DNA of 44,071 nt from a virus, in the IMG/VR virus record IMGVR_UViG_3300028812_000007, positions 1 through 44,071 of that record. One strand, 5' to 3'. Below the pieces are notes generated by a model that had not been told where the DNA came from, ran no database searches, and was given only the letters and a program-made list of their open reading frames with translations. Position 1 is the first letter of the stretch, and each line of letters begins with the position of its first letter. Shown piece after piece: positions 11,704 to 35,575 of the stretch. Made by a program: the position numbers and the translations under genes.

Positions 11704-12795
11704 ATGGCGAAAGCGAAGAAGAACAGCCAGATCAGCGGGCTGCCGGAAGGCGTATATTTTAACCTGCCCTTCGACGACTATCACAACGACCCGGCGCTGG
11801 GCTCAGGTGACTTGCGCGCGCTCAGAAAGAGCGCGCCGGACTATTGGTATGAAAGCCCGCTCAACCCGCAGCGCGTGCGAAGCAAGACCACGCCGGCCCG
11901 GCTACGCGGGCAGGCCATGCACTCAATGGTGTTAGAAGGCCGTCAGGCGTTTGACGCGCGTTTCGTTTGCGAGCCCACCGGCAGCGATGTGCTTTACACC
12001 ATCGCGGACATGACAGAGTGGCTGAAGGCGCACGGCTCGCTTTTCCCAAAGGGCAGCAAGGCCGAGCTAGCCGCGCTGGTGCAGAAGTTTGCCAAGCGGC
12101 TAAAGCTGAAGAACCCGCCCGTTCTCTATGACGACTTCAAATCCAAGGTTGAGGCCAGCGGCAGGATCATCCTCAACTTCGATGACTATGCGCGCATTTC
12201 AATAGCCAGCGCGATGATTACCAAGAACCCGGAGTTGGCGACAGCCTTCACCGGCGGCGTGTCGGAAGTCTCAGTGTTCTGGCGGCGGTCACCGCAAGAC
12301 CCGATGATGAAATGTCGGTTCGACTATCTGAAGGTCCGCGGGATCGGTGACCTCAAGGCCATCACCAACACCATGGGCGTTGACTTTGGCGAGGCGTGCA
12401 AGAACAACTTTGCGCGCTACCGCTACGACATTCAGGCGGCGCACTACCTTGAAGGCCGCGCCATGCTGCCGCTGCTGGTGCGGGGCGGTCACGTGTTCGG
12501 CAAGCACGATAAAAAGTGGCTAGCCGAGGTGGCAGCCTCGAAAGAGTACGCCTTTGTGTTTGTGTTCTTCCAAGCTGAAGGCGCACCCATCACCGAAAGC
12601 TTCAAGCTGTCACCGCGCAATCCCATTCTCGCCGTTGCTCAGGATGACATTGCCGCGGCGCTGGCGCGCTATCACCAGAGCCTCAACACGTTTGGCCCGC
12701 ACGAAATGTGGGTGCGCATCGCGCCCACCGCTGAGCTAGATATTGGCGAATTGCCCGGCTACTACGGCAGGGCGCAACCCGGAGAGAAGCCATGA
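11704..12795 (+). CDS. RecE/ExoVIII-like PD-(D/E)XK exonuclease
   Basis: A 363-residue nuclease. The N-terminus has the family pattern DDYHNDPALGSGDLRAL followed by SAPDYWY and RGQAMHSMVLEG. The catalytic region has VSEVSVFWRR (Glu), MKCRFDYL (Asp), then GIGDLKAIT, which supplies the D-x-K. A later AAHYLEG completes the motif. Such 5'-3' exonucleases chew dsDNA ends to give 3' tails for a single-strand annealing partner. The next gene overlaps by four bases (ATGA), as expected for an exonuclease and annealing-protein pair. Confidence 0.85.
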   Translation: MAKAKKNSQISGLPEGVYFNLPFDDYHNDPALGSGDLRALRKSAPDYWYESPLNPQRVRSKTTPARLRGQAMHSMVLEGRQAFDARFVCEPTGSDVLYTIADMTEWLKAHGSLFPKGSKAELAALVQKFAKRLKLKNPPVLYDDFKSKVEASGRIILNFDDYARISIASAMITKNPELATAFTGGVSEVSVFWRRSPQDPMMKCRFDYLKVRGIGDLKAITNTMGVDFGEACKNNFARYRYDIQAAHYLEGRAMLPLLVRGGHVFGKHDKKWLAEVAASKEYAFVFVFFQAEGAPITESFKLSPRNPILAVAQDDIAAALARYHQSLNTFGPHEMWVRIAPTAELDIGELPGYYGRAQPGEKP

Positions 12796-13811
12796 GTGAG
12801 AATGAGGGCGACACCACGCGCCAGCAAATAGCCACCCTTGAAGCCGGCCATGAACTGGTGACATTCGAGCGCGCCACCATCGACCAGCAGATAGCCACCG
12901 CCAAGCGCTTTCCGCGCCGGGTGCAGGTGGCTATGGAAAGCATGACCGCGCTGGCCATCATTACGCCTGAGGCCGCGCGCACCATGATCTACACGCTGCC
13001 GCGCTCAGGCAAAGATATTGAAGGCCCGAGCGTGCGGCTGGCAGAGATCATCCACCAGTGTTGGGGCAACGCCCGTGTCAGTGATGGCATCGCCGCCGTC
13101 AATCGCGCGGAAGGCTACGTTGAGGCGTTCGGTGAATTCCACGACCTCGAGACGAACAGCGCCACGCGCACCACCACCCGCCGCCGCATCACTGACAGCA
13201 TGGGCAGGCTCTACAGCAACGACATGATCGTGGTGACAGGCAACGCCGCCCGCTCTATCGCCCGCCGCAACGCCATTCTGGCCGGCGTGCCAAAGGCCGT
13301 CTACATGAAGGCTTACGAGGCTGCCGCTGAGGTGTGCGGCGGCACCATGCAGACCTTGGGCGAGAACCTTGACGCTGCACTGCAAGCCTTCAAGCTGGAA
13401 TACAACATCGAACCGGCGCGCGTGTACGCCGCGCTCGGTATCAGCGGCGAGGCTGACGTTGGCCTGAAGCATATCCGCAAAATGCGCGGCATGTATGCCG
13501 CGCTCAAGAATGAGGAAGCTACGGTGGGTGAGCTATTCAGCCCGCGCACGGCTGAGGCCACCGAAGCTGAGGTGGCCAACCCACTGACCGACGACACTGG
13601 CAAGGGTGACGGCGGCAAGGGCAAGCCGGGCAAGCCCAAGACCGCGGCGCAATACATCGAGCACGCCACCAAGTGGATTGCCGAAGCCAGCAACGAGCCG
13701 GCAGCGCGCCGCCAGTGGCGCGATGAACGCACGTTGCGTGAGGCGTGCGGCGTGTCAGCAAAACAGCGCGAGCCCTTGGAAGCCGCGCTTGAAACCAAGT
13801 TCGCAAAATAG
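12792..13811 (+). CDS. Putative recombination partner / single-strand annealing protein candidate
   Basis: A 339-residue protein of a phage family I recognise by pattern but cannot name with certainty. The core (residues about 75-180) has IEGPSVRLAEIIHQCWGN, VEAFGEFHDLETN, a run of TTRRRITD, and VTGNAARSIARRNAILAGVPK. A charged Gly/Lys linker (about 265-280) leads to a small C-terminal helical domain ending LETKFAK, recalling how annealing proteins carry a C-terminal partner-binding tail. It directly follows the RecE-like exonuclease, the place normally taken by RecT/Redbeta/Erf proteins. The annealing role is inference from context, and no classical RecT motif is seen. Confidence 0.6.
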   Translation: MSENEGDTTRQQIATLEAGHELVTFERATIDQQIATAKRFPRRVQVAMESMTALAIITPEAARTMIYTLPRSGKDIEGPSVRLAEIIHQCWGNARVSDGIAAVNRAEGYVEAFGEFHDLETNSATRTTTRRRITDSMGRLYSNDMIVVTGNAARSIARRNAILAGVPKAVYMKAYEAAAEVCGGTMQTLGENLDAALQAFKLEYNIEPARVYAALGISGEADVGLKHIRKMRGMYAALKNEEATVGELFSPRTAEATEAEVANPLTDDTGKGDGGKGKPGKPKTAAQYIEHATKWIAEASNEPAARRQWRDERTLREACGVSAKQREPLEAALETKFAK

Positions 13812-27521: not shown

Positions 27522-28019
27522 TCAGTACCACTCTTGTTGCTTAAGAGCGCCGCCCAGCACTTGCGTGATGGCCAGCGTTGCGGCGTTCGAGGTGTCCAGC
27601 GATACGCCCGCCGTGTCCACACCCAAGATGGTGAAGCCCGGCACGCCGGCCTCAACAAACTGCATTTCTACCGTGCAGAAGCCGCCGCGCTCGCGCACTT
27701 CCGTCAGCGTGTAGCCCTCGCACACCACCTGAAGCGCGCTGATCTTGGGCAGCACCAGCAGCCCCGGGCCGTCAGCCTCAAGCGCGGATACCAGCAGGTC
27801 CCGCGGACGGGTGAAGTTCGGGCCGATCAAATAGCCGCTGATACGGAAGCGCTTTGCGCGGCGTCCCATATCCTCCGCATAGGGCAGGTTGCGCTTCGGG
27901 TACTCGTGCAGAGCAACGCGGCGGCCTGACGCCTTGCCGCCAGCCTCAACGTGGAAGAACGCGCCACGGAAAGAGGCGGGTCCAAGACCTTCACGCCACG
28001 GAGCGCGCGGCATAGCCAT
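27522..28019 (-). CDS. gpN N-terminal domain protein (DNA_circ_N)
   Basis: A 165-residue protein. It starts MAMPRAPWREGLGPASFRGAFFHVEAG. It has GRRVALHEYPKRNLPYAEDMG, RRAKRFRISGYLIG and LPKISALQVVCEGYTLTE, which together are the DNA_circ_N domain of Mu gpN. In Mu this family was first tied to protecting and circularising phage DNA ends and is now seen as a tail-tip/hub part. The C-terminus here stops at about residue 165, less than half the length of Mu gpN, and the rest is the next gene. Its ATG shares bases with the tape measure stop (TAATG). Confidence 0.8.
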   Translation of the reverse strand: MAMPRAPWREGLGPASFRGAFFHVEAGGKASGRRVALHEYPKRNLPYAEDMGRRAKRFRISGYLIGPNFTRPRDLLVSALEADGPGLLVLPKISALQVVCEGYTLTEVRERGGFCTVEMQFVEAGVPGFTILGVDTAGVSLDTSNAATLAITQVLGGALKQQEWY

Positions 28020-30355
28020 TAGTAGTCTCCCAGAGCGCCATAGTCAGGCGACAAGCTTTCGTCACCCTTTGGCATTTGCATGCCGCGGTTTATCTGCACA
28101 CCTGAGAACAGCCCCTCAGCGTCAGCGCCAACCTTCGTGCCCCGCGGGGCGTTCACGTCAACGCGGATCGTTGCGTTGCCGGTAACACTCTGTGCGCCGC
28201 CGGTCTGCCCCTTCAGCGCGCGGCGGAACTCGTACTCGCCCACGCCTTGGTTGATAACCGGGCGGCCTTGATTGCCCCCCAGCAGATTGAAGCGGCCAGT
28301 GGCCGGGTCCACGTCCTTCACGATGCCGACATGGCTGCCGGTCGCGCCGGTAGGCGCGTAGCCGCCATAGCGGCTGCGGTTGCGAACAGCCACGTCACCC
28401 GGCTGCACATCGTGAGGCTCAACGCGCGTGCCGTACTTGCGCCAGTTGGAAGCGATGCCCGCACCCTTGGGCGGCTCACCACCTGAGGCGCGCACCACTG
28501 AAGCTGCGAATTGACCGCACCACGCGCCGGACTTCGGGTAGCCCTGCGAACTCATAAACGCCTGAAGCTCGCCGGTGGTAGCCCCGCGCGATAGCAGCGC
28601 CTCAGCCTGCTTCAGCACCTCGCTGGGCACACCAGCCCCGTCGCTGGCCAGCCCGCCCACCTTGCCGGCGTTGATGTTCGCCGTGCCCTCAGCGTGAGTG
28701 ATGCCGCCGAACACGCGCTTCGCCATGGCCGGGTCATTGGCTAGGTCAAGCGGCTCGTTAGGATCGACGCCCGCGCGCTTGGCAACGGTGGCGGCCCACG
28801 CCTCCTGATCGGTGGTCGTGTATTTGCGCGCCATCTGGTTGACCGATAGCCCGCTGTAGCTCTTTTGCAGCAGCGCTTGCGCCGCAGTGTCGCCCGTCTC
28901 CTGATCGGGGAAGATAGCAAATCCGCGGTCGTCAGCGCCGGTGGCACCCATGCTCTGAGCGAAGGGGCCATACTTGAGGTTGCCGCGGTTATTGTTGCGC
29001 ACGCCACGCGTCAGGCCGGTTGCCGCGGCGTTGGTGCTGTAGCCGCCCGTGCTCAGCGACGTGCGCTGAGGTCCGCTATCTGACGGCACATAGATGGCGC
29101 GCGGCCCGCCGGTGCTCACCAGACCGTCACCGCCACCACCGCCGCCAGTGTAGCTCTGAAGCCGCAGGTAGTCTAAGAAGCCCTTGCCAACCTCTTTGCC
29201 TATTTCAGGCGCGGCGTTCTTGATGCCTTGCTCAGCGCCGCGCTCAACCCCCTGCTCCATGCCGCGCGGGGTGGGCATGTCATAGCCACCCAACGGGGCG
29301 CGCTGAGGTGACGGCGATGGCGTAGGCACCACGCGGTCACCGAACCACTTCCACACGTCACCCCACGTGGCGCTAGGGCTGCCGGGCTTTTTGCTCTGAT
29401 CGTTCTGATCCTTCATTAGCCCGGTCACCAAGCCCGGCACCATCGACCAGTTCGGCATGCCGTTCTGGCCAATATCGAAGAACCAACGAACGCGACCGCT
29501 AACCGTATCCAGCCGCTCAGTGGCGGCGGTCAGCGCTTCAATGCCGGCCACCATAGGGCCGAACGTGAGGTTGGCCATCGACACCTTCAGGTTATCGATA
29601 GCACCGGACAGCTTGCCGACCTGAAGCGCGTACTTTGCCGCGGCCTCGGCGTCAGGCACCTTGACTTCGCCAAGCGCCTTCGTCAGTTCGCGCACCTGAT
29701 CTATGGTCATGCGCGCAAACTCAGGCGAACCGAACAAGAAGGTGGCCAGCGTGGCGCGGTCGTGTGGGTCCTTCAAGCGCTGTAGCGCTTCCATAGACCG
29801 CTCAAGCGCCTTGGTAGGATCGTTGGAAAGAATGTCCTCGCGAAGGTTGCGGTAGAAGCCCAGCGCTTGGTGCTTGGCGAAGAACTCCACCACCTCAGCG
29901 GACTGGCGCTTGATGCCGTACAGCCGCTCTGAGAACGTGCGCAGACCTTGCGTGGCCGCCTCAGGTGCTATGCCAAGCTGAGGCGCAAGGCGCTCAAACT
30001 GCCGGATCGTCTCCATGGCGAAGCCGGTTTCGCGGCTGGCAAAACGCAGGCCGAGCACGCCTTGCGAATACTCATTCAACGCGCGGCCGGCCAGCACCAG
30101 CGACCCAGCCACACCGACCACCGCCGCGCCCAACCCCAGCGTGGTGCCGGTCAGGCCGCGCATCGCGGGGCTCAGCACCCCGCCCACGTTGCCGCCTATC
30201 TGATCGATGACCGTGGATAGCTCACCGAAGTTCTTCTTCAGTTCGCGGCCGGCGGGTGAGCGCGCAATTTCCTCAAGCGAACGCTTGATGCCTTGTAGCG
30301 GGCCGGTGGCGTTATCGCGAACCCTTGCTTCAAGGTGCAGCGGTTGGCTCGCCAT
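28019..30355 (-). CDS. Tape measure protein with two C-terminal peptidoglycan-type domains
   Basis: A 778-residue protein. Residues 1-290 are alpha-helical with a hydrophobic stretch (TLGLGAAVVGVAGSLVLAGRAL), usual in tape measures that set tail length and are ejected with DNA. From about residue 450, GVRNNNRGNLKYGPF starts a domain like those that begin NNPGN/NNxGN in structural muramidases. Around 609-700 lies a CHAP/NlpC-like cysteine peptidase: SGAWCGQFAAS (Cys 613), GSHVGIV (His 675), LLGGNQG (Asn 695). Together they could open peptidoglycan during DNA entry (inference). A Pro-rich linker near 350 splits the halves. The ATG shares bases with the frameshift-frame stop. Confidence 0.88.
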   Translation of the reverse strand: MASQPLHLEARVRDNATGPLQGIKRSLEEIARSPAGRELKKNFGELSTVIDQIGGNVGGVLSPAMRGLTGTTLGLGAAVVGVAGSLVLAGRALNEYSQGVLGLRFASRETGFAMETIRQFERLAPQLGIAPEAATQGLRTFSERLYGIKRQSAEVVEFFAKHQALGFYRNLREDILSNDPTKALERSMEALQRLKDPHDRATLATFLFGSPEFARMTIDQVRELTKALGEVKVPDAEAAAKYALQVGKLSGAIDNLKVSMANLTFGPMVAGIEALTAATERLDTVSGRVRWFFDIGQNGMPNWSMVPGLVTGLMKDQNDQSKKPGSPSATWGDVWKWFGDRVVPTPSPSPQRAPLGGYDMPTPRGMEQGVERGAEQGIKNAAPEIGKEVGKGFLDYLRLQSYTGGGGGGDGLVSTGGPRAIYVPSDSGPQRTSLSTGGYSTNAAATGLTRGVRNNNRGNLKYGPFAQSMGATGADDRGFAIFPDQETGDTAAQALLQKSYSGLSVNQMARKYTTTDQEAWAATVAKRAGVDPNEPLDLANDPAMAKRVFGGITHAEGTANINAGKVGGLASDGAGVPSEVLKQAEALLSRGATTGELQAFMSSQGYPKSGAWCGQFAASVVRASGGEPPKGAGIASNWRKYGTRVEPHDVQPGDVAVRNRSRYGGYAPTGATGSHVGIVKDVDPATGRFNLLGGNQGRPVINQGVGEYEFRRALKGQTGGAQSVTGNATIRVDVNAPRGTKVGADAEGLFSGVQINRGMQMPKGDESLSPDYGALGDY

Positions 30356-30895: not shown

Positions 30896-31258
30896 CTACG
30901 AAACCTCATCGCATGACACGCCTTCGAAGCGCACGCGCACCTGACCTTCGCGCGATTGCAACTCCAACGCATCCTTGCACCACGCCTCCCGCAGCACATA
31001 CACCTTGCCGTTCGCCAGTTCGGCAGTGACGGTGGCGTTGATGACCGCGGACACGTCATCCATCGACAGGCCCGGCACCAGCGACACGTCACCTTCGATG
31101 AAGGGCACGCGCGGCAATTCGCTGAAGCCGTGCACGTAGTCTTGGCCGGCGATGCCGGCGCGCTCGACGGCAGAGGGCGATACGGTGAAGTTGCCCTTGA
31201 GCGGGTACTGGTTTCCGTCAACCTTCAGAAACGCAACACCTGCAATGCGCGGAGCCAT
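30896..31258 (-). CDS. Tail tube protein (Mu gpM-like)
   Basis: A 120-residue protein, starting MAPRIAGVAFLKVDGNQYPLKG and containing SGFxELP-like GFSELPRVPFIEGDVSLVPG, as in Mu-type tube proteins. It forms stacked hexameric rings inside the sheath and guides DNA. GAGG is 5 bases upstream. In Mu it directly follows the sheath gene. Here the four-gene cassette intervenes. Confidence 0.87.
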   Translation of the reverse strand: MAPRIAGVAFLKVDGNQYPLKGNFTVSPSAVERAGIAGQDYVHGFSELPRVPFIEGDVSLVPGLSMDDVSAVINATVTAELANGKVYVLREAWCKDALELQSREGQVRVRFEGVSCDEVS

Positions 31259-31290
31259 GCTGACCTCTCCCGGGTTTCGCCCGGGCCGGG

Positions 31291-31935
31291 TCAGGCCGGG
31301 GCTAAGATCAAGTTGCGACGGTCAACGGCGCGCGCCGCGACCTTGTACGATGGGAGCATGTCTATCACGGCAGCTTCCGCGCTGTCATCCAGCACTTCCA
31401 CAAAGAGCACCGGGCGGTCGCGAGCCAGAAGCTTGCTAGCGCCGGCCAGCACCGCCAACTCATGGCGCTCAACGTCTATCTTGATCGCGCTAACCGGGTG
31501 GCTCACCAGCAGGCAATCCAGAGCCACCGTTTTCACGGTGATTTTGTTCGGCCCGCTCTTGCGCTTCAGGCTGGCACCGGCGGTGAACGGGGTGTTGGTG
31601 TAGCAAAGCTGTGCCTTCCCACAGGTGGCGTCAGCAGCGCCGCAGATTAACCTTAACCCAACGCCGTTGGCCTTGGCGTTCACCTCAATGCGCTCTTGCA
31701 TCAACGGCAAGGGCTCCACTACCAGCACCTCGGCCGCGCCGGCTTTGGCCGCGGCAATACCGAACAACCCACTGTAGCCGCCAACGTCGATGACCGCGCT
31801 GCCGGGGCGGCACGCCTCAACCCAGCGGGCCAGCGTGTCAGGCTCGAACGGGGTGCCGGTGGTGGTGATGTGGCGAACAATGCGGTCGCCTTCATCCACC
31901 AGTTCTACTGCCACGCTGCCAATCTCGATCTTCAT
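31291..31935 (-). CDS. FkbM-family SAM-dependent methyltransferase
   Basis: A 214-residue Rossmann-fold methyltransferase. SAM motif I is VIDVGGYSGLFGI (about residues 48-60), then VVEP (73-75) as the acidic loop. IKIDVERHELAVLAGA near residue 155 is the FkbM signature, and LFVEVLDD follows. FkbM enzymes O-methylate sugars or polyketides, and in phage and bacterial glycan clusters they cap sugars. Translation is coupled to the upstream glycosyltransferase by a four-base overlap. It is the last gene of the cassette inserted before the tube gene, and a methylated glycan is the likely product (inference). Confidence 0.85.
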   Translation of the reverse strand: MKIEIGSVAVELVDEGDRIVRHITTTGTPFEPDTLARWVEACRPGSAVIDVGGYSGLFGIAAAKAGAAEVLVVEPLPLMQERIEVNAKANGVGLRLICGAADATCGKAQLCYTNTPFTAGASLKRKSGPNKITVKTVALDCLLVSHPVSAIKIDVERHELAVLAGASKLLARDRPVLFVEVLDDSAEAAVIDMLPSYKVAARAVDRRNLILAPA

Positions 31936-32591
31936 TGCCACTGCTCCCTGACCCATGCCACGCCGCAGTTGTGCGGCTTATGGCTGCCGGCGAATATCAC
32001 CAGCGATGCCGATGCCGGCCGCACGCTGGTGAGGTGACGGTATCCCAGAAAGAACCCCGGCGGCATAAGCCGCTGTAGGATCGCGGCGTCAGGCACACAT
32101 TCTTCAATGACGCGCTGATCGCCATACCGACCGTGCTTTGCCATCCACACGCTATCGCACACCAGCACCGCCGCACGGTTAAAGGCGTCATCCCCGAAGC
32201 TTGGGTTAAGCACCATGACGCAAGAGCCATAACGGCACGGCCAGTTGAGGTTGCCGGCGGCGCGCGTGAAGTTCTCACAGATGGCGAAGTCAGCGCCTAC
32301 ATTTTGCAGCGGCGTCAGGTCACCGACCACCGCAGTGTCTAAGTCGATATAAACGATCCGGCGCGTCTGCCGCCACGTGTATTGCAGCAGTGCCAGCTTA
32401 GCCCACCAGCCCAGCAGGCCGCCCGGCACGGGGTGCATCTTCACGCCCTCAATCTGATCGGGCTGATCGGTGAAGCACGCAATATCGAATGAGCCCGGCG
32501 CGGCGTGCCGCCGTATGCCGTTGCGCAAGCGCTCAACGTACTCAGGCCCGTAACGGGTGCCTGAGCGCACGCATGCGAAGGTCACCTTCAT
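31932..32591 (-). CDS. GT-A glycosyltransferase (DxD) 2
   Basis: A 219-residue protein. Its start reads MKVTFACVRSGTRYGPEYVERL. The metal-binding DxD is at IVYIDLDTAVVGDL (Asp 83, Asp 85), preceded by GGLLGWWAKLALLQY, as in GT-A enzymes of the GT8/GT32-like group. The later SHKPHNCG is a typical final loop. It transfers a sugar from a nucleotide donor onto an unknown acceptor. The ATG overlaps the previous stop by four bases. No signal peptide or membrane helix is seen, so it is cytoplasmic. Confidence 0.83.
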   Translation of the reverse strand: MKVTFACVRSGTRYGPEYVERLRNGIRRHAAPGSFDIACFTDQPDQIEGVKMHPVPGGLLGWWAKLALLQYTWRQTRRIVYIDLDTAVVGDLTPLQNVGADFAICENFTRAAGNLNWPCRYGSCVMVLNPSFGDDAFNRAAVLVCDSVWMAKHGRYGDQRVIEECVPDAAILQRLMPPGFFLGYRHLTSVRPASASLVIFAGSHKPHNCGVAWVREQWQ

Positions 32592-33331
32592 ACCGCACCA
32601 GCCCACACATCGCGCGCCGCGCGCCACTCGTTGGCGTAGGCTACGTTTTCAAAGCCCGGCAGCCACGGCCCGCCATCGGTAAAGTGAACGATCGCCGGAT
32701 TGACGGTCGCCGGCGAGTGACCCACCAGCCAATTCCACTCCACCCCCAGCGCGCCTATAAGGCCGTCAGTGGGGGCGAGCCAATCAAACTGGTGCAGCGC
32801 TAGGCCGCGCCACGTGTTCACCACCTCAACAGTGAGCCCACCGCGCACGCCCGGGTGCTCGCAGTTAAAGACCATCATGCTTGACCAGTTCTTGCGCGCG
32901 TAGCCCGTCTGCGGCTGCCCATCCATCTTTTGATCGCTGGTAGGGCGGTGGTCATGCTTCACGCACCATACGGCAATATCGCGGTGCTCTGCCGCTTGCT
33001 CGAACAGCGGCCGCACGTCACGGCGCACCAGCATATCCGCATCAAGGAAGGCGGCGATGCCGTGGTAGCGCGTCAGCGCCGGCACCAGAAAGCGCGTCAG
33101 CGCAAACTCGGTGGCCATGGGCTTGCCGGATATTTCATCCATCAAGATGCCGGCAGCAGTGCGGTGAGTTGGCCGCGTGTAGAGCCCAGCGGTCACCAGC
33201 CGGTCCATCCTCAGCGCGTGCACCTGTAGGCTACCCCACCGGGCATGCCTCAACAGGGTGTGGCGCGCTACCGCGAACGCCTCAACCTCGCGCGGGTCAT
33301 ACCCGATAAAAACGTGCCACGGCCTCAGCAT
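32588..33331 (-). CDS. GT-A glycosyltransferase (DxD) 1
   Basis: A 247-residue protein beginning MLRPWHVFIGYDPREVEAF. It has ATEFALTRFLVPALTRYHG and AAFLDADMLVRRDV (DxD at Asp 97/Asp 99), then VVFNCEH and VEWNWLVGHS, typical of GT8-like glycosyltransferases. The last residues FTDGGPWLPG are typical of the family's end. It overlaps the upstream gene by 35 bases. With the adjacent enzymes it likely assembles a short glycan (inference). Acceptor and donor sugars cannot be read from sequence. Confidence 0.83.
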   Translation of the reverse strand: MLRPWHVFIGYDPREVEAFAVARHTLLRHARWGSLQVHALRMDRLVTAGLYTRPTHRTAAGILMDEISGKPMATEFALTRFLVPALTRYHGIAAFLDADMLVRRDVRPLFEQAAEHRDIAVWCVKHDHRPTSDQKMDGQPQTGYARKNWSSMMVFNCEHPGVRGGLTVEVVNTWRGLALHQFDWLAPTDGLIGALGVEWNWLVGHSPATVNPAIVHFTDGGPWLPGFENVAYANEWRAARDVWAGAV

Positions 33332-33944
33332 AGGTATCCGCCTTCTCGAAACAGTTGATCGCACTTTCGGGAAACGCATTGACCACGCGCACGCCGGCAG
33401 CCTTCAGCCGCGGCGCGATGACGTTGAACGCCGCCGCCCACGTGGCCCAATTTCCGTTGCTGTGCTTGCGGGGGCGAATGTAGTGCTGCTCGTTGTGGTG
33501 CACCGGGCCGTCCTTTTCCTCACCGCGGTAGTCGAAGCCCAGCAGTATGACGCCGCGCGGTGGACCCAGCGCGTACACCATGCCCAGCGAGCCGAACCCC
33601 GAAGATCCTCCGCTATACACCTCGCCCGGTGAGCGGGACAGCCCGACGCCCGGGTGGCGCTTCACAAAGCGAACGCACGCCGGCTTCTGGGCAATCATCG
33701 TGGCCGCGCCGGGCTCAGGCACCGCCCAATATACCGGCATGGTTACCTCGGCCGCGAGGCGCTCGCGCCATTCTTCATAGCGCGGCGTGTCCAGCCCGAA
33801 GCCGCACGCCGCCCACGGCAGATCGAATATGCTGCCCTTGACCGCCATCACGCGCACGTCATCGCGGCGCATCTGGTCGAAGTCGAAGCCGGCCAACGAA
33901 CGGCCGCCAGCAACGATGACAGCAATCTTATCTTGAAAGATCAT
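33297..33944 (-). CDS. DUF115-like / 'norphogenetic'-type glycan-modifying protein
   Basis: A 215-residue protein. KIAVIVAGGRSLAGFDF near the start is the Rossmann G-x-S-L motif. GGSSGFGSLGMVYALG and GVILLGFDY match the G-x-S/N-x-S-G...LLG(F/Y)D pattern of DUF115/MptE-like proteins. These are often found with phage glycosyltransferases and annotated as norphogenetic protein. The C-terminus (WATWAAAFNVIAPRLKAAGVRVVNAFPESAIN) also fits. Function is unproven, and glycosyltransferase-like activity has been suggested for relatives. A longer in-frame start (GTG 34046, overlapping the sheath stop) would read through the terminator hairpin, but the ATG at 33944 has the better ribosome-binding site. 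Confidence 0.75.
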   Translation of the reverse strand: MIFQDKIAVIVAGGRSLAGFDFDQMRRDDVRVMAVKGSIFDLPWAACGFGLDTPRYEEWRERLAAEVTMPVYWAVPEPGAATMIAQKPACVRFVKRHPGVGLSRSPGEVYSGGSSGFGSLGMVYALGPPRGVILLGFDYRGEEKDGPVHHNEQHYIRPRKHSNGNWATWAAAFNVIAPRLKAAGVRVVNAFPESAINCFEKADTYAEAVARFYRV

Positions 33945-33960
33945 GGTGCGCTCCCGGCAA

Positions 33961-33994
33961 GAGAAAAGCCCGGCAGCACTCTGGCTGCCGGGCT
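33961..33994 (-). terminator. Rho-independent terminator after tail sheath
   Basis: Arms AGCCCGGCAG (33967-33976) and CTGCCGGGCT (33985-33994) form a perfect 10-bp stem with an 8-base loop, followed on the minus strand by TTTTCTC. It lies between the sheath gene and the glycan-modification cassette. Downstream tail genes thus rely on read-through or another promoter. A second hairpin (CGTGTCA/TGACACG, 33999-34020) sits just before it. Confidence 0.88.
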
Positions 33995-34042
33995 CCGTCG
34001 TGTCAATCCATGCTGACACGGCTTCAATAGGGGCTAGGCCCC

Positions 34043-35575
34043 TCACAGAATGCTGGTGTCCACGCCGCGGTTATACTGAAGGCGGAATTGGCCCAGCACC
34101 GCGAAGATACGCAGTTGGTTCACAAGGTCAGGCGGGTACAGCACCGACACGCGGTTCGGGTTATTGCTGTCACGCTCCACGATCAAGTTATCCTTGAACG
34201 CGGCGGCGTTCTCCACCAGCCCGTTGAACTCCGCGATACGATACTGAGCAATCAGTTCGGCCTTGATGATCTTGGGCGTCACGATTGCCTGACCCGGGCC
34301 GAAGCGCGTGCCGTCATCGGCCAGCTTGTGGCGCGGCCACTTGCTGGTGACCGCGTGCTGCAGGTCGCGGAAAAGACGCGCGAGGGTGGCCAGCGTGGTC
34401 ACCAGTTCGTAAGCGTCATCGCCCTGACCGTAGCTGTTGAGTTGGTACGTGGTGCTCTCACGCAGCAGCGCCACGTTGCCGTTCGGGTTGACGTTCGCCG
34501 TGGCCAGCCCGTTGCCGGCGAGGTTGTTCAACTCCGTTTTGCTGAAGCGCTGGTGCTTCGGTGCCGGCTTCAGGCTCAGCAGTTCGAGCGTCTGAAGCGG
34601 GCGGGCCGGGTCATTGAGCAACGCGCGCGCCGCCTTCGCGGTGTACGCCGCTGACCACTCCCACTTCGGTGACGGCGCTGCCGTCTCCATGGCAATCACG
34701 CTCAGCAGACCGCTGTTCTGGGTTGCGCCCCAGACCAGCAGGTTCGCATACGTGTCGCGGTAGGCCGAGAACAGGTGGCCGTAGGTCTGGCGCATCCAGC
34801 CCCAGCGGCCGGTATCGCTGAAGCCGTATTCGGTGTTCCAGTCCGACAGCGACGTGGTGTCGGTGAACGGCATGGCCACGAACTCGTATGGCTCATCGCC
34901 AAGGTTGGCGATTGCCGCCGCAAAGTCCGGTGCCGCCGTGCCGCCGGTGAGGAAGTTGCTGCCGCTGTACGCCAGCGCAATGCCGGCCGGCATACGCTCG
35001 CCGCCGTTCACGCCGAGGTAATTGTCCTGCATGCGGATATCGTTGCCGCTCTCACCCTTCCACTTGCAGGTCAGTGTGACCACCGCACCATCGGACGCCG
35101 CCGAAGCGGTCACCGGGAGCGTGGCCAGATCGTTGATGGCCGCCACCAGCGCTTGCGCCACCTCAACCGCGGTGTCATCCACGGCCACCGCCAACTCAAC
35201 GCGCTGGCCGGCGATGTAGACGTACAGCGTGCCCGCCCCGGTCGCGGGGCCGGTCACAGTGATGGTGCCGCTCGCGGTCACGCCAGCGCCGGGCTCGGCC
35301 ACGGGCAGGCCATAGACTTCGTGGGCGAAGTTGTTCGCAAAGAACGCGGTGAACATGCGCGCCAGCATCGAGCCTTCACCGAACGCGTCGTCGGCCTGAG
35401 CCTGAGACGAGATTGCGATAGGCACGTCCACCGGCGCGCTGCCGGCTGCCAGCTTCACACCCACCAGCAGCGCCGGCAGGTTAGCCACGGGGAAGCCGGC
35501 CTTGCTGGGATCGACCTCAACCCATACGAGGGGCAAGCGCCAGTTCGCCGGGAAGTTTGAAAACGAGATAGGCAT
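34043..35575 (-). CDS. Tail sheath protein (Mu gpL-like)
   Basis: A 510-residue contractile sheath subunit. It starts MPISFSNFPANWRLPLVWVEVD. ANLPALLVGVKLAAGS and FGEGSMLARMFTAFFANN match Mu-type sheath proteins. ATPAGTGTLYVYIAGQ-like TGAGTLYVYIAGQRVELAV and TCKWKGESGND give the insertion domain. The C-terminal VSVLYPPDLVNQLRIFAV and FRLQYN are the conserved handle by which neighbouring rings lock together. AAGGAGG lies about 8 bases before the ATG. Presence of a sheath sets the myovirus morphology. Confidence 0.92.
   Translation of the reverse strand: MPISFSNFPANWRLPLVWVEVDPSKAGFPVANLPALLVGVKLAAGSAPVDVPIAISSQAQADDAFGEGSMLARMFTAFFANNFAHEVYGLPVAEPGAGVTASGTITVTGPATGAGTLYVYIAGQRVELAVAVDDTAVEVAQALVAAINDLATLPVTASAASDGAVVTLTCKWKGESGNDIRMQDNYLGVNGGERMPAGIALAYSGSNFLTGGTAAPDFAAAIANLGDEPYEFVAMPFTDTTSLSDWNTEYGFSDTGRWGWMRQTYGHLFSAYRDTYANLLVWGATQNSGLLSVIAMETAAPSPKWEWSAAYTAKAARALLNDPARPLQTLELLSLKPAPKHQRFSKTELNNLAGNGLATANVNPNGNVALLRESTTYQLNSYGQGDDAYELVTTLATLARLFRDLQHAVTSKWPRHKLADDGTRFGPGQAIVTPKIIKAELIAQYRIAEFNGLVENAAAFKDNLIVERDSNNPNRVSVLYPPDLVNQLRIFAVLGQFRLQYNRGVDTSIL

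Follow-up and report, generated by a model that had tools for sequence, protein, structure and literature searches.

A conserved cassette of putative glycosyltransferases and an FkbM-family methyltransferase at the sheath-tube junction of a contractile-tailed phage

Between the tail sheath gene and the tail tube gene of the soil phage in IMG/VR record IMGVR_UViG_3300028812_000007 lies a cassette of four genes which is the subject of this report. The window, i.e. the whole stretch of DNA analysed, comprises 44,071 nucleotides and is a 44-kb virus record by itself. It encodes a lambda-like head (terminase, portal, protease, decoration and major head protein) together with a contractile tail of the SfV/Mu type, and the term Mu-like, used in a first-pass annotation made from the sequence alone, is correct for the tail but not for the head. 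Four open reading frames (ORFs) on the minus strand, named A to D in the direction of reading, occupy the space between the two tail genes:

34043 to 35575, minus strand: tail sheath gene, upstream neighbour of the cassette (PHROG 165, E 1.5e-173, and Pfam sheath domains)
33967 to 33994, minus strand: terminator-like hairpin in the gap between sheath and A, with an 11-bp GC-rich stem and a 6-nt loop, followed by TTTTCTCTT on the coding strand (T-rich tail)
33297 to 33944, minus strand: gene A, putative glycosyltransferase of Maf/CstII fold (GT42-like), 215 amino acids, HHNEQHY loop (PHROG 4603 and AlphaFold2 model)
32588 to 33331, minus strand: gene B, putative glycosyltransferase of GT-A fold, 247 amino acids, DxD motif LDADM (PHROG 28018 and model)
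31932 to 32591, minus strand: gene C, putative GT8-like glycosyltransferase, 219 amino acids (PHROG 1962, sub-cutoff Pfam GT8 match, motifs)
31291 to 31935, minus strand: gene D, FkbM-family methyltransferase, 214 amino acids (TIGR01444 and PF05050)
31260 to 31294, minus strand: second hairpin, covering the stop codon of D and the ribosome-binding region of the tube gene (-22.6 kcal/mol, z -4.37)
30896 to 31258, minus strand: tail tube gene, downstream neighbour of the cassette (Pfam Tail_tube, E 3.8e-36)

A and B overlap by 35 bases, B and C by 4, and C and D by 4, the two short overlaps both reading ATGA, in exact agreement with the coupled, overlapping genes of the first-pass annotation. 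All four genes start with ATG, a purine-rich stretch is found upstream of B and of D, and C, which is devoid of one, starts at the ATGA overlap; these features fit translational coupling of A to D. The G+C content of the four genes (0.62-0.64) is the same as that of the flanking tail genes and thus does not point to a very recent acquisition. The cassette is a real, conserved module and more than a chance arrangement, as about ten divergent loci share its gene order and selection on A is purifying.

Gene A matched PHROG 4603, annotated as alpha-2,3-sialyltransferase (E 3.4e-14), and no Pfam family at E<=1, DUF115 and Maf_flag10 included. Its AlphaFold2 model (predicted local distance difference test score, pLDDT, 89) resembled the Maf flagellin glycosyltransferase of Magnetospirillum (5mu5, Z 13.8 over 186 residues), the pterin kinase MptE (Z 11.5) and the sialyltransferase CstII (Z 11.0). 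The matches to Maf and CstII spanned 167-186 residues and were followed by unrelated Rossmann folds at Z about 5. This ranking was taken from a second look with VIA-align, as the first ranks of Foldseek were unrelated dehydrogenases which superposed poorly. The modelled fold of A is of the Maf/CstII type, a fold which by itself is also compatible with a kinase such as MptE. A profile built from the alignment of A gave a collinear but sub-threshold match to CstII (E 0.6). Conserved residues are G14, S16 and L17, at a putative nucleotide-binding G-x-S-L motif, and G136 and D138, at an LxGxD strand. The HHNEQHY loop, for which a catalytic role is presumed and a histidine of which may correspond to the base of CstII, aligns with HWHGxH of the homologues in PAJU2 and P1. 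The ratio of nonsynonymous to synonymous substitution rates (dN/dS) of A was 0.06-0.25 in close pairs, indicating purifying selection. No close relative of A was found among isolates in 50,697 phage records searched with the window sequence; distant isolate homologues surfaced only via intermediate relatives.

For gene B the sole family match was PHROG 28018, where no function is assigned, and there was no Pfam match. The model of B (pLDDT 85) has a GT-A fold of the GT8 type, with WbbM (Z 16.7), LgtC (16.6), GlyE (16.2) and glycogenin (15.8) as structural matches, and the aspartates D97 and D99 of its DxD motif are invariant. Gene C matched PHROG 1962, annotated as glycosyltransferase, with E 6e-21 and the Pfam GT8 family PF01501 with E 7e-4, the 19.6 bits of the latter lying under the gathering score of 24.3; its DxD (YIDLDTAVV), GDQ and HKP motifs are intact. 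Gene D scored 80.3 bits against the FkbM model TIGR01444, the cutoff of which is 37.7, and 2e-10 against PF05050. Judged by their motifs, the catalytic sites of all four proteins look intact. The first-pass annotation had thus been right in regarding B and C as DxD glycosyltransferases and D as an FkbM methyltransferase. Its description of A as DUF115-like stands at the level of the fold (Maf, CstII) and fails at the level of the Pfam family. Structure prediction, which it had named as a check, was performed for A and B and yielded the Maf/CstII and GT-A folds.

In all 22 isolate records of phages with an SfV/Mu-type tail in which matches to sheath and tube were both listed, the gap between the two genes, read from the coordinates, was below 95 bp (17 in SfV, 13 in IPK, 48 in BZS1, 90 in BgVeeders33), and the two genes can therefore be called normally adjacent, as had been claimed. 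Metagenomic relatives from soil were gathered via the sheath; some rows came through a search with A, by which the proportions are biased upwards. Among 77 distinct sheaths, A was present in the junction in 50, the junction was empty in 18 and had other content in 3, and no data were available for 6. The occupied junctions contained A alone, A and C, or A and B, in some cases followed by an extra gene X, with C and D, so that B, C and D come and go among the loci bearing A. The gene X encodes a GT9-family protein in locus L023 and a PHROG 2518 protein in L048. The order A-B-X-C-D recurs between sheath and tube of divergent phages, a Bradyrhizobium prophage among them. The sheath-tube junction held an insert of at least 450 bp in 41 of 59 loci, as compared to 2 of 51 for the junction of the tube and tail assembly chaperone (TAC) genes and 2 of 48 for that of the TAC and tape-measure protein (TMP) genes. 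The interval upstream of the sheath is also often long (16 of 68), yet contains none of the genes A to D. A sheath tree contained one clade of 48 rows in which every one of the 46 with data had A; the window stands on a long branch and grouped with a set of mostly empty slots. The records with an empty slot had no A at any other place in the record. The sheath-tube junction is a recurrent slot in these soil metagenomic relatives and is empty in one group of them. In Bradyrhizobium genomes an A-like gene, mostly divergent, was found in 9 of 265, and just one had the cassette between sheath and tube. A prophage of Bradyrhizobium sp. BRP22 (L225) carries a full cassette. Other occupants of the junction are GIY-YIG/NUMOD3 and HNH endonuclease genes (L019, L032, L037, L053, L071). 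An HNH-like remnant adjoins A in L068.

In about 20 relatives (e.g. L025, L030, L031, L048, L056, L058, L060) and in none of the empty loci, an ORF of 140-208 amino acids with proline-rich repeats such as PDQGLPGxQP lies between sheath and A. The one tested for family matches, that of L058, had none in Pfam or PHROG. Its product is a possible acceptor or tail-associated protein in these relatives; as acceptor for the cassette of the window it was rejected, the window having no such ORF between sheath and A. Additional methyltransferase-like and DUF6716-like genes accompany some cassettes (L193 7944-8537, L216 8724-9536, L023 6719-7456).

Comparison of cassettes with and without B revealed two grades, the window belonging to the full one. 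The N-x-x-H-Y loop of A is kept in 13 of 16 loci with B and in none of 29 without it. In C, the DxD motif, GDQ and a KP motif are kept in 11 of 11 loci of the sheath lineage with B, whereas of the loci without B about half have a changed DxD motif, most lack GDQ and almost all lack the C-terminal motif. Reduced A still has a dN/dS of 0.13-0.18 in close pairs, and reduced C is looser with 0.3-0.4. The loss of B and of the motifs reflects only 2-4 independent transitions, i.e. a strong pattern from few events for which a sign test is powerless. Judging from these motif losses, the reduced forms may be non-catalytic.

The region 33940-34046, which includes the hairpin behind the sheath gene, folds with -51.2 kcal/mol (z -3.86). 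A consensus terminator scan did not list this hairpin, its T run being short of the rule of the tool. Hairpins scoring at least 8 behind the sheath gene were found in 30 of 50 cassette-bearing but only 2 of 18 empty loci (Fisher p 3e-4, phylogeny not controlled). In L215 and L230 a similar hairpin parts A from the major head gene, and PMG1 has an annotated terminator at the corresponding place. A scan of the window found no promoter-like site ahead of A on its strand. In our reading, the hairpin terminates all or part of the transcripts for the abundant virion protein, and read-through past it yields the enzymes in smaller amounts, a scheme which does not account for the abundant tube protein encoded downstream. 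The second hairpin could couple translation of the tube to that of D; as a general feature a hairpin before the tube gene was rejected, being found in 1 of 38 cassette-bearing and 3 of 18 empty loci.

Relatives of the cassette are also found in other genomic surroundings. The profile of A matched PmgO (2.4e-27) and PmgP (2.3e-14) of P1, ORF010 of PAJU2 (1.2e-30), Orf7 of PMG1/D3 (2e-26), gp126 of CcrColossus (1.2e-32) and a protein of Domovoi (7.7e-34). That of B matched CcrColossus gp129 (1.7e-63), and that of C matched P1 PmgQ (5.4e-25) and phiNP_030 (1.7e-27). In ten loci (L193, L207, L209, L214-L216, L221, L222, L224, L230) the cassette comes right behind the major head gene (PHROG 1005 or 29) or is parted from it by one small gene, and in L201 it lies upstream of a lambda-type tail tube gene. 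The A-like gene of PAJU2 is located between the head closure and tail terminator genes, that of PMG1 after the major head gene and its annotated terminator, and that of Domovoi near tail and lysis genes. The CcrColossus cluster follows a tail-protein gene and lies between tail fibre and lysis genes, the A and C pair of phiNP is found between the lysis gene Rz and the terminase gene, and the P1 homologues are part of the morphogenetic pmg operon, which is under C1 operators (C1 being the lytic repressor) and a late promoter. Common to these placements is late expression, often beside a major virion gene, with exceptions.

Several of these clusters can be compared gene by gene with that of the window. 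The P1 cluster pmgO-pmgP-ppp-pmgQ contains homologues of A (PmgO, PmgP) and of C (PmgQ) as lytic-phase accessory genes with no assigned function; it differs in having a phosphatase gene inside, in having neither B nor an FkbM gene, and in not being located at a sheath-tube junction. Deletion or knock-down of pmgO, pmgP or pmgQ causes no plaque defect (PMC9024508, PMC10695390), and the benefit of these homologues to P1, if any, is therefore conditional. PAJU2 (ORF010-012) and D3/PMG1 carry an A-like gene (PHROG 4603, 4.4e-65) and a methyltransferase gene inside the head-tail block, but are siphophages with another type of tail, their methyltransferase (PHROG 6564) is not matched by the profile of D, and B and C are missing. 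In CcrColossus gp126-gp131, A (gp126) and B (gp129) are accompanied by a methyltransferase (gp130) and a GT9 protein (gp131); this is a giant siphophage, and gp130 is likewise not matched by the profile of D.

Outside phages, Maf proteins O-glycosylate serine and threonine residues of flagellin in the cytoplasm (PMC11339370). A of the window shares the fold of the central Maf domain, but has only 215 amino acids, is without the other Maf domains, and its acceptor would be a virion protein. A nonulosonic acid pathway did not turn up for the window phage, no search having been aimed at one. Flagellin glycosylation islands combine GT2, GT4 and GT9 enzymes with FkbM methyltransferases in one locus (PMC6993521), a gene content resembling that of the cassette. 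In the mycobacteriophages Che8 and Rita, phage glycosyltransferases are said to put glycans on the capsid (PMC11256854, citing Freeman et al. 2023). These phages have other hosts. The first-pass annotation had invoked actinobacterial phages with nearby glycosyltransferase genes; nearness is not needed there, the glycosyltransferase genes of Maravista being located near the 3' end of the genome (PMC11256854).

The recurrence of such genes beside major particle genes or other late genes of unrelated phages suggests that the enzymes are made to decorate the phage's own particles. Cassettes beside different major virion genes, the Maf fold of A and the gene content reminiscent of flagellin islands make virion decoration the best supported explanation, and that the enzymes glycosylate and O-methylate an abundant protein of the virion, late in infection and at a low level, has in our estimate about an even chance of being correct. 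According to this scheme, the cassette would be transcribed with the tail operon, and the hairpin behind the sheath gene would hold the enzymes at catalytic rather than structural amounts. A would attach the first sugar to a serine or threonine of the acceptor, in the manner of the related Maf proteins on flagellin, B and C would then extend the sugar chain, and D would O-methylate a sugar. The protein encoded by the adjoining major virion gene, i.e. the sheath here and the capsid in other phages, would be no more than the first candidate for the acceptor. We observed the families, folds and motifs of the genes, their coupling and location and the recurrence of the cassette, and from these we infer that the enzymes are active, the order in which they act, donor and acceptor, and a benefit. 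Glycosylation and methylation of the virion, as put forward in the first-pass annotation, thus remain the best supported reading, while nothing singles out sheath, tube or fibre as the acceptor. Concealment of the virion from antibodies or receptors, also suggested there, would be a hypothetical benefit.

Several observations weigh against decoration of the particle. The argument from location, on which the first-pass annotation relied, holds in that placement among late and virion genes recurs, but is weaker than assumed, as HNH and GIY-YIG genes use the same slot, which may be merely permissive, and as the phiNP pair lies between lysis and terminase genes. Catalytic motifs are eroded in cassettes that lack B, the P1 knockouts are without a plaque defect (PMC9024508, PMC10695390), and no feature of the sheath was found to track the cassette separably from phylogeny. 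Serine and threonine columns and insertions of the sheath, considered as a mark of the acceptor, do differ between cassette-bearing and empty loci, but this is confounded with one clade split and was rejected. The glycan on a virion protein and its donor sugars are both hypothetical.

The main rival explanation, which we consider unlikely, is a modification of host surface glycan (lipopolysaccharide core, O-antigen or exopolysaccharide) late in infection, which would spare released virions from binding to debris and infected cells. GT8- and GT9-type enzymes and FkbM methyltransferases act in lipopolysaccharide and O-antigen pathways too, the best structural matches of B include the lipopolysaccharide builders WbbM and LgtC, and the phiNP pair adjoins lysis genes, just as the CcrColossus cluster stands directly ahead of them. 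A serotype conversion of the Gtr type, however, works with a membrane flippase and a membrane glycosyltransferase, and no GtrA/GtrB-type membrane component was found: none of the proteins A to D has a transmembrane segment, the maximum hydropathy over 19 residues being 1.52. The late position, with A parted from the sheath by the hairpin and no promoter-like site of its own, also speaks against it, as do the separate O-antigen acetylase which PAJU2 has elsewhere and the C1 operators of the P1 homologues, which are hence probably off in the lysogen.

Somewhat less likely again is that A, and in reduced cassettes also C, is a non-catalytic virion or assembly protein with a glycosyltransferase fold, the full cassettes keeping both roles or the enzymatic one only. 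The conservation of A despite its eroded loop suggests a non-catalytic role in reduced cassettes: A is missing from none of the 46 loci of one sheath clade for which there are data, has lost the loop in all 29 loci without B, where C is mostly without GDQ and HKP, and is nevertheless under purifying selection. The A-like proteins of PAJU2 (ORF010, L241) and of Klebsiella phage Eowyn (2303-2875, L243) were labelled 'structural protein' by their depositors, the basis of which is not in the records. The eroded loop is, on the other hand, only presumed to be catalytic, A, B, C and D of the window retain their motifs, and PmgO, PmgP and PmgQ are dispensable and are not named in the main text of the paper on the P1 virion proteome. 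A more specific version, that in one large clade of contractile tails the sheath-adjacent protein lost its presumed catalytic loop and became a conserved non-enzymatic tail or assembly protein, with the full enzymatic cassette persisting in a minority such as the window phage, is to be judged more doubtful still.

Lower again in likelihood is that the genes are neutral or selfish cargo which persists in an insertion-tolerant junction by travelling with the tail module. This would accommodate the endonuclease genes at the same junction of other phages and the coming and going of B, C and D. It is at odds with dN/dS values of A and C well under 1, with the retention of A throughout one clade, with the gain and loss of B to D as sets with matching motif states, and with the rarity of inserts at the other junctions of the operon. 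A glycosylation of modified bases of the phage DNA, for which phage glycosyltransferases reportedly exist, e.g. in Shewanella phage Thanatos (PMC12838424), is highly improbable, as a non-exhaustive scan of the window proteins recognised no base-modifying enzyme, the folds of A and B match protein- or glycan-directed enzymes, and the cassette is late rather than early.

Two further observations were made elsewhere in the window. The region 28019-30355 encodes a tape-measure protein, the C-terminal half of which contains a CHAP domain just under the Pfam cutoff along with tail-lysozyme-like and endolysin-like stretches. At 11704-13811 an overlapping pair of plus-strand genes, which encode an exonuclease VIII-like protein and a PHROG 3657 protein, runs against the prevailing strand.

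Glycosyltransferase clusters in late regions of phages are already known as a kind, with no function assigned to them, while the sheath-tube slot, the hairpin behind the sheath gene and the two grades of the cassette are to our knowledge apparently undescribed in the open-access literature. The eroded cassettes provide natural contrasts for learning the function of the enzymes, and genes of textbook phages which have had no assigned role, i.e. pmgO, pmgP and pmgQ of P1 and Orf7 of D3, gain a concrete and testable hypothesis as coding for particle-decorating enzymes. If decoration of the particle is true, virion glycosylation would reach past the mycobacteriophages to phages which infect soil proteobacteria and have contractile tails.

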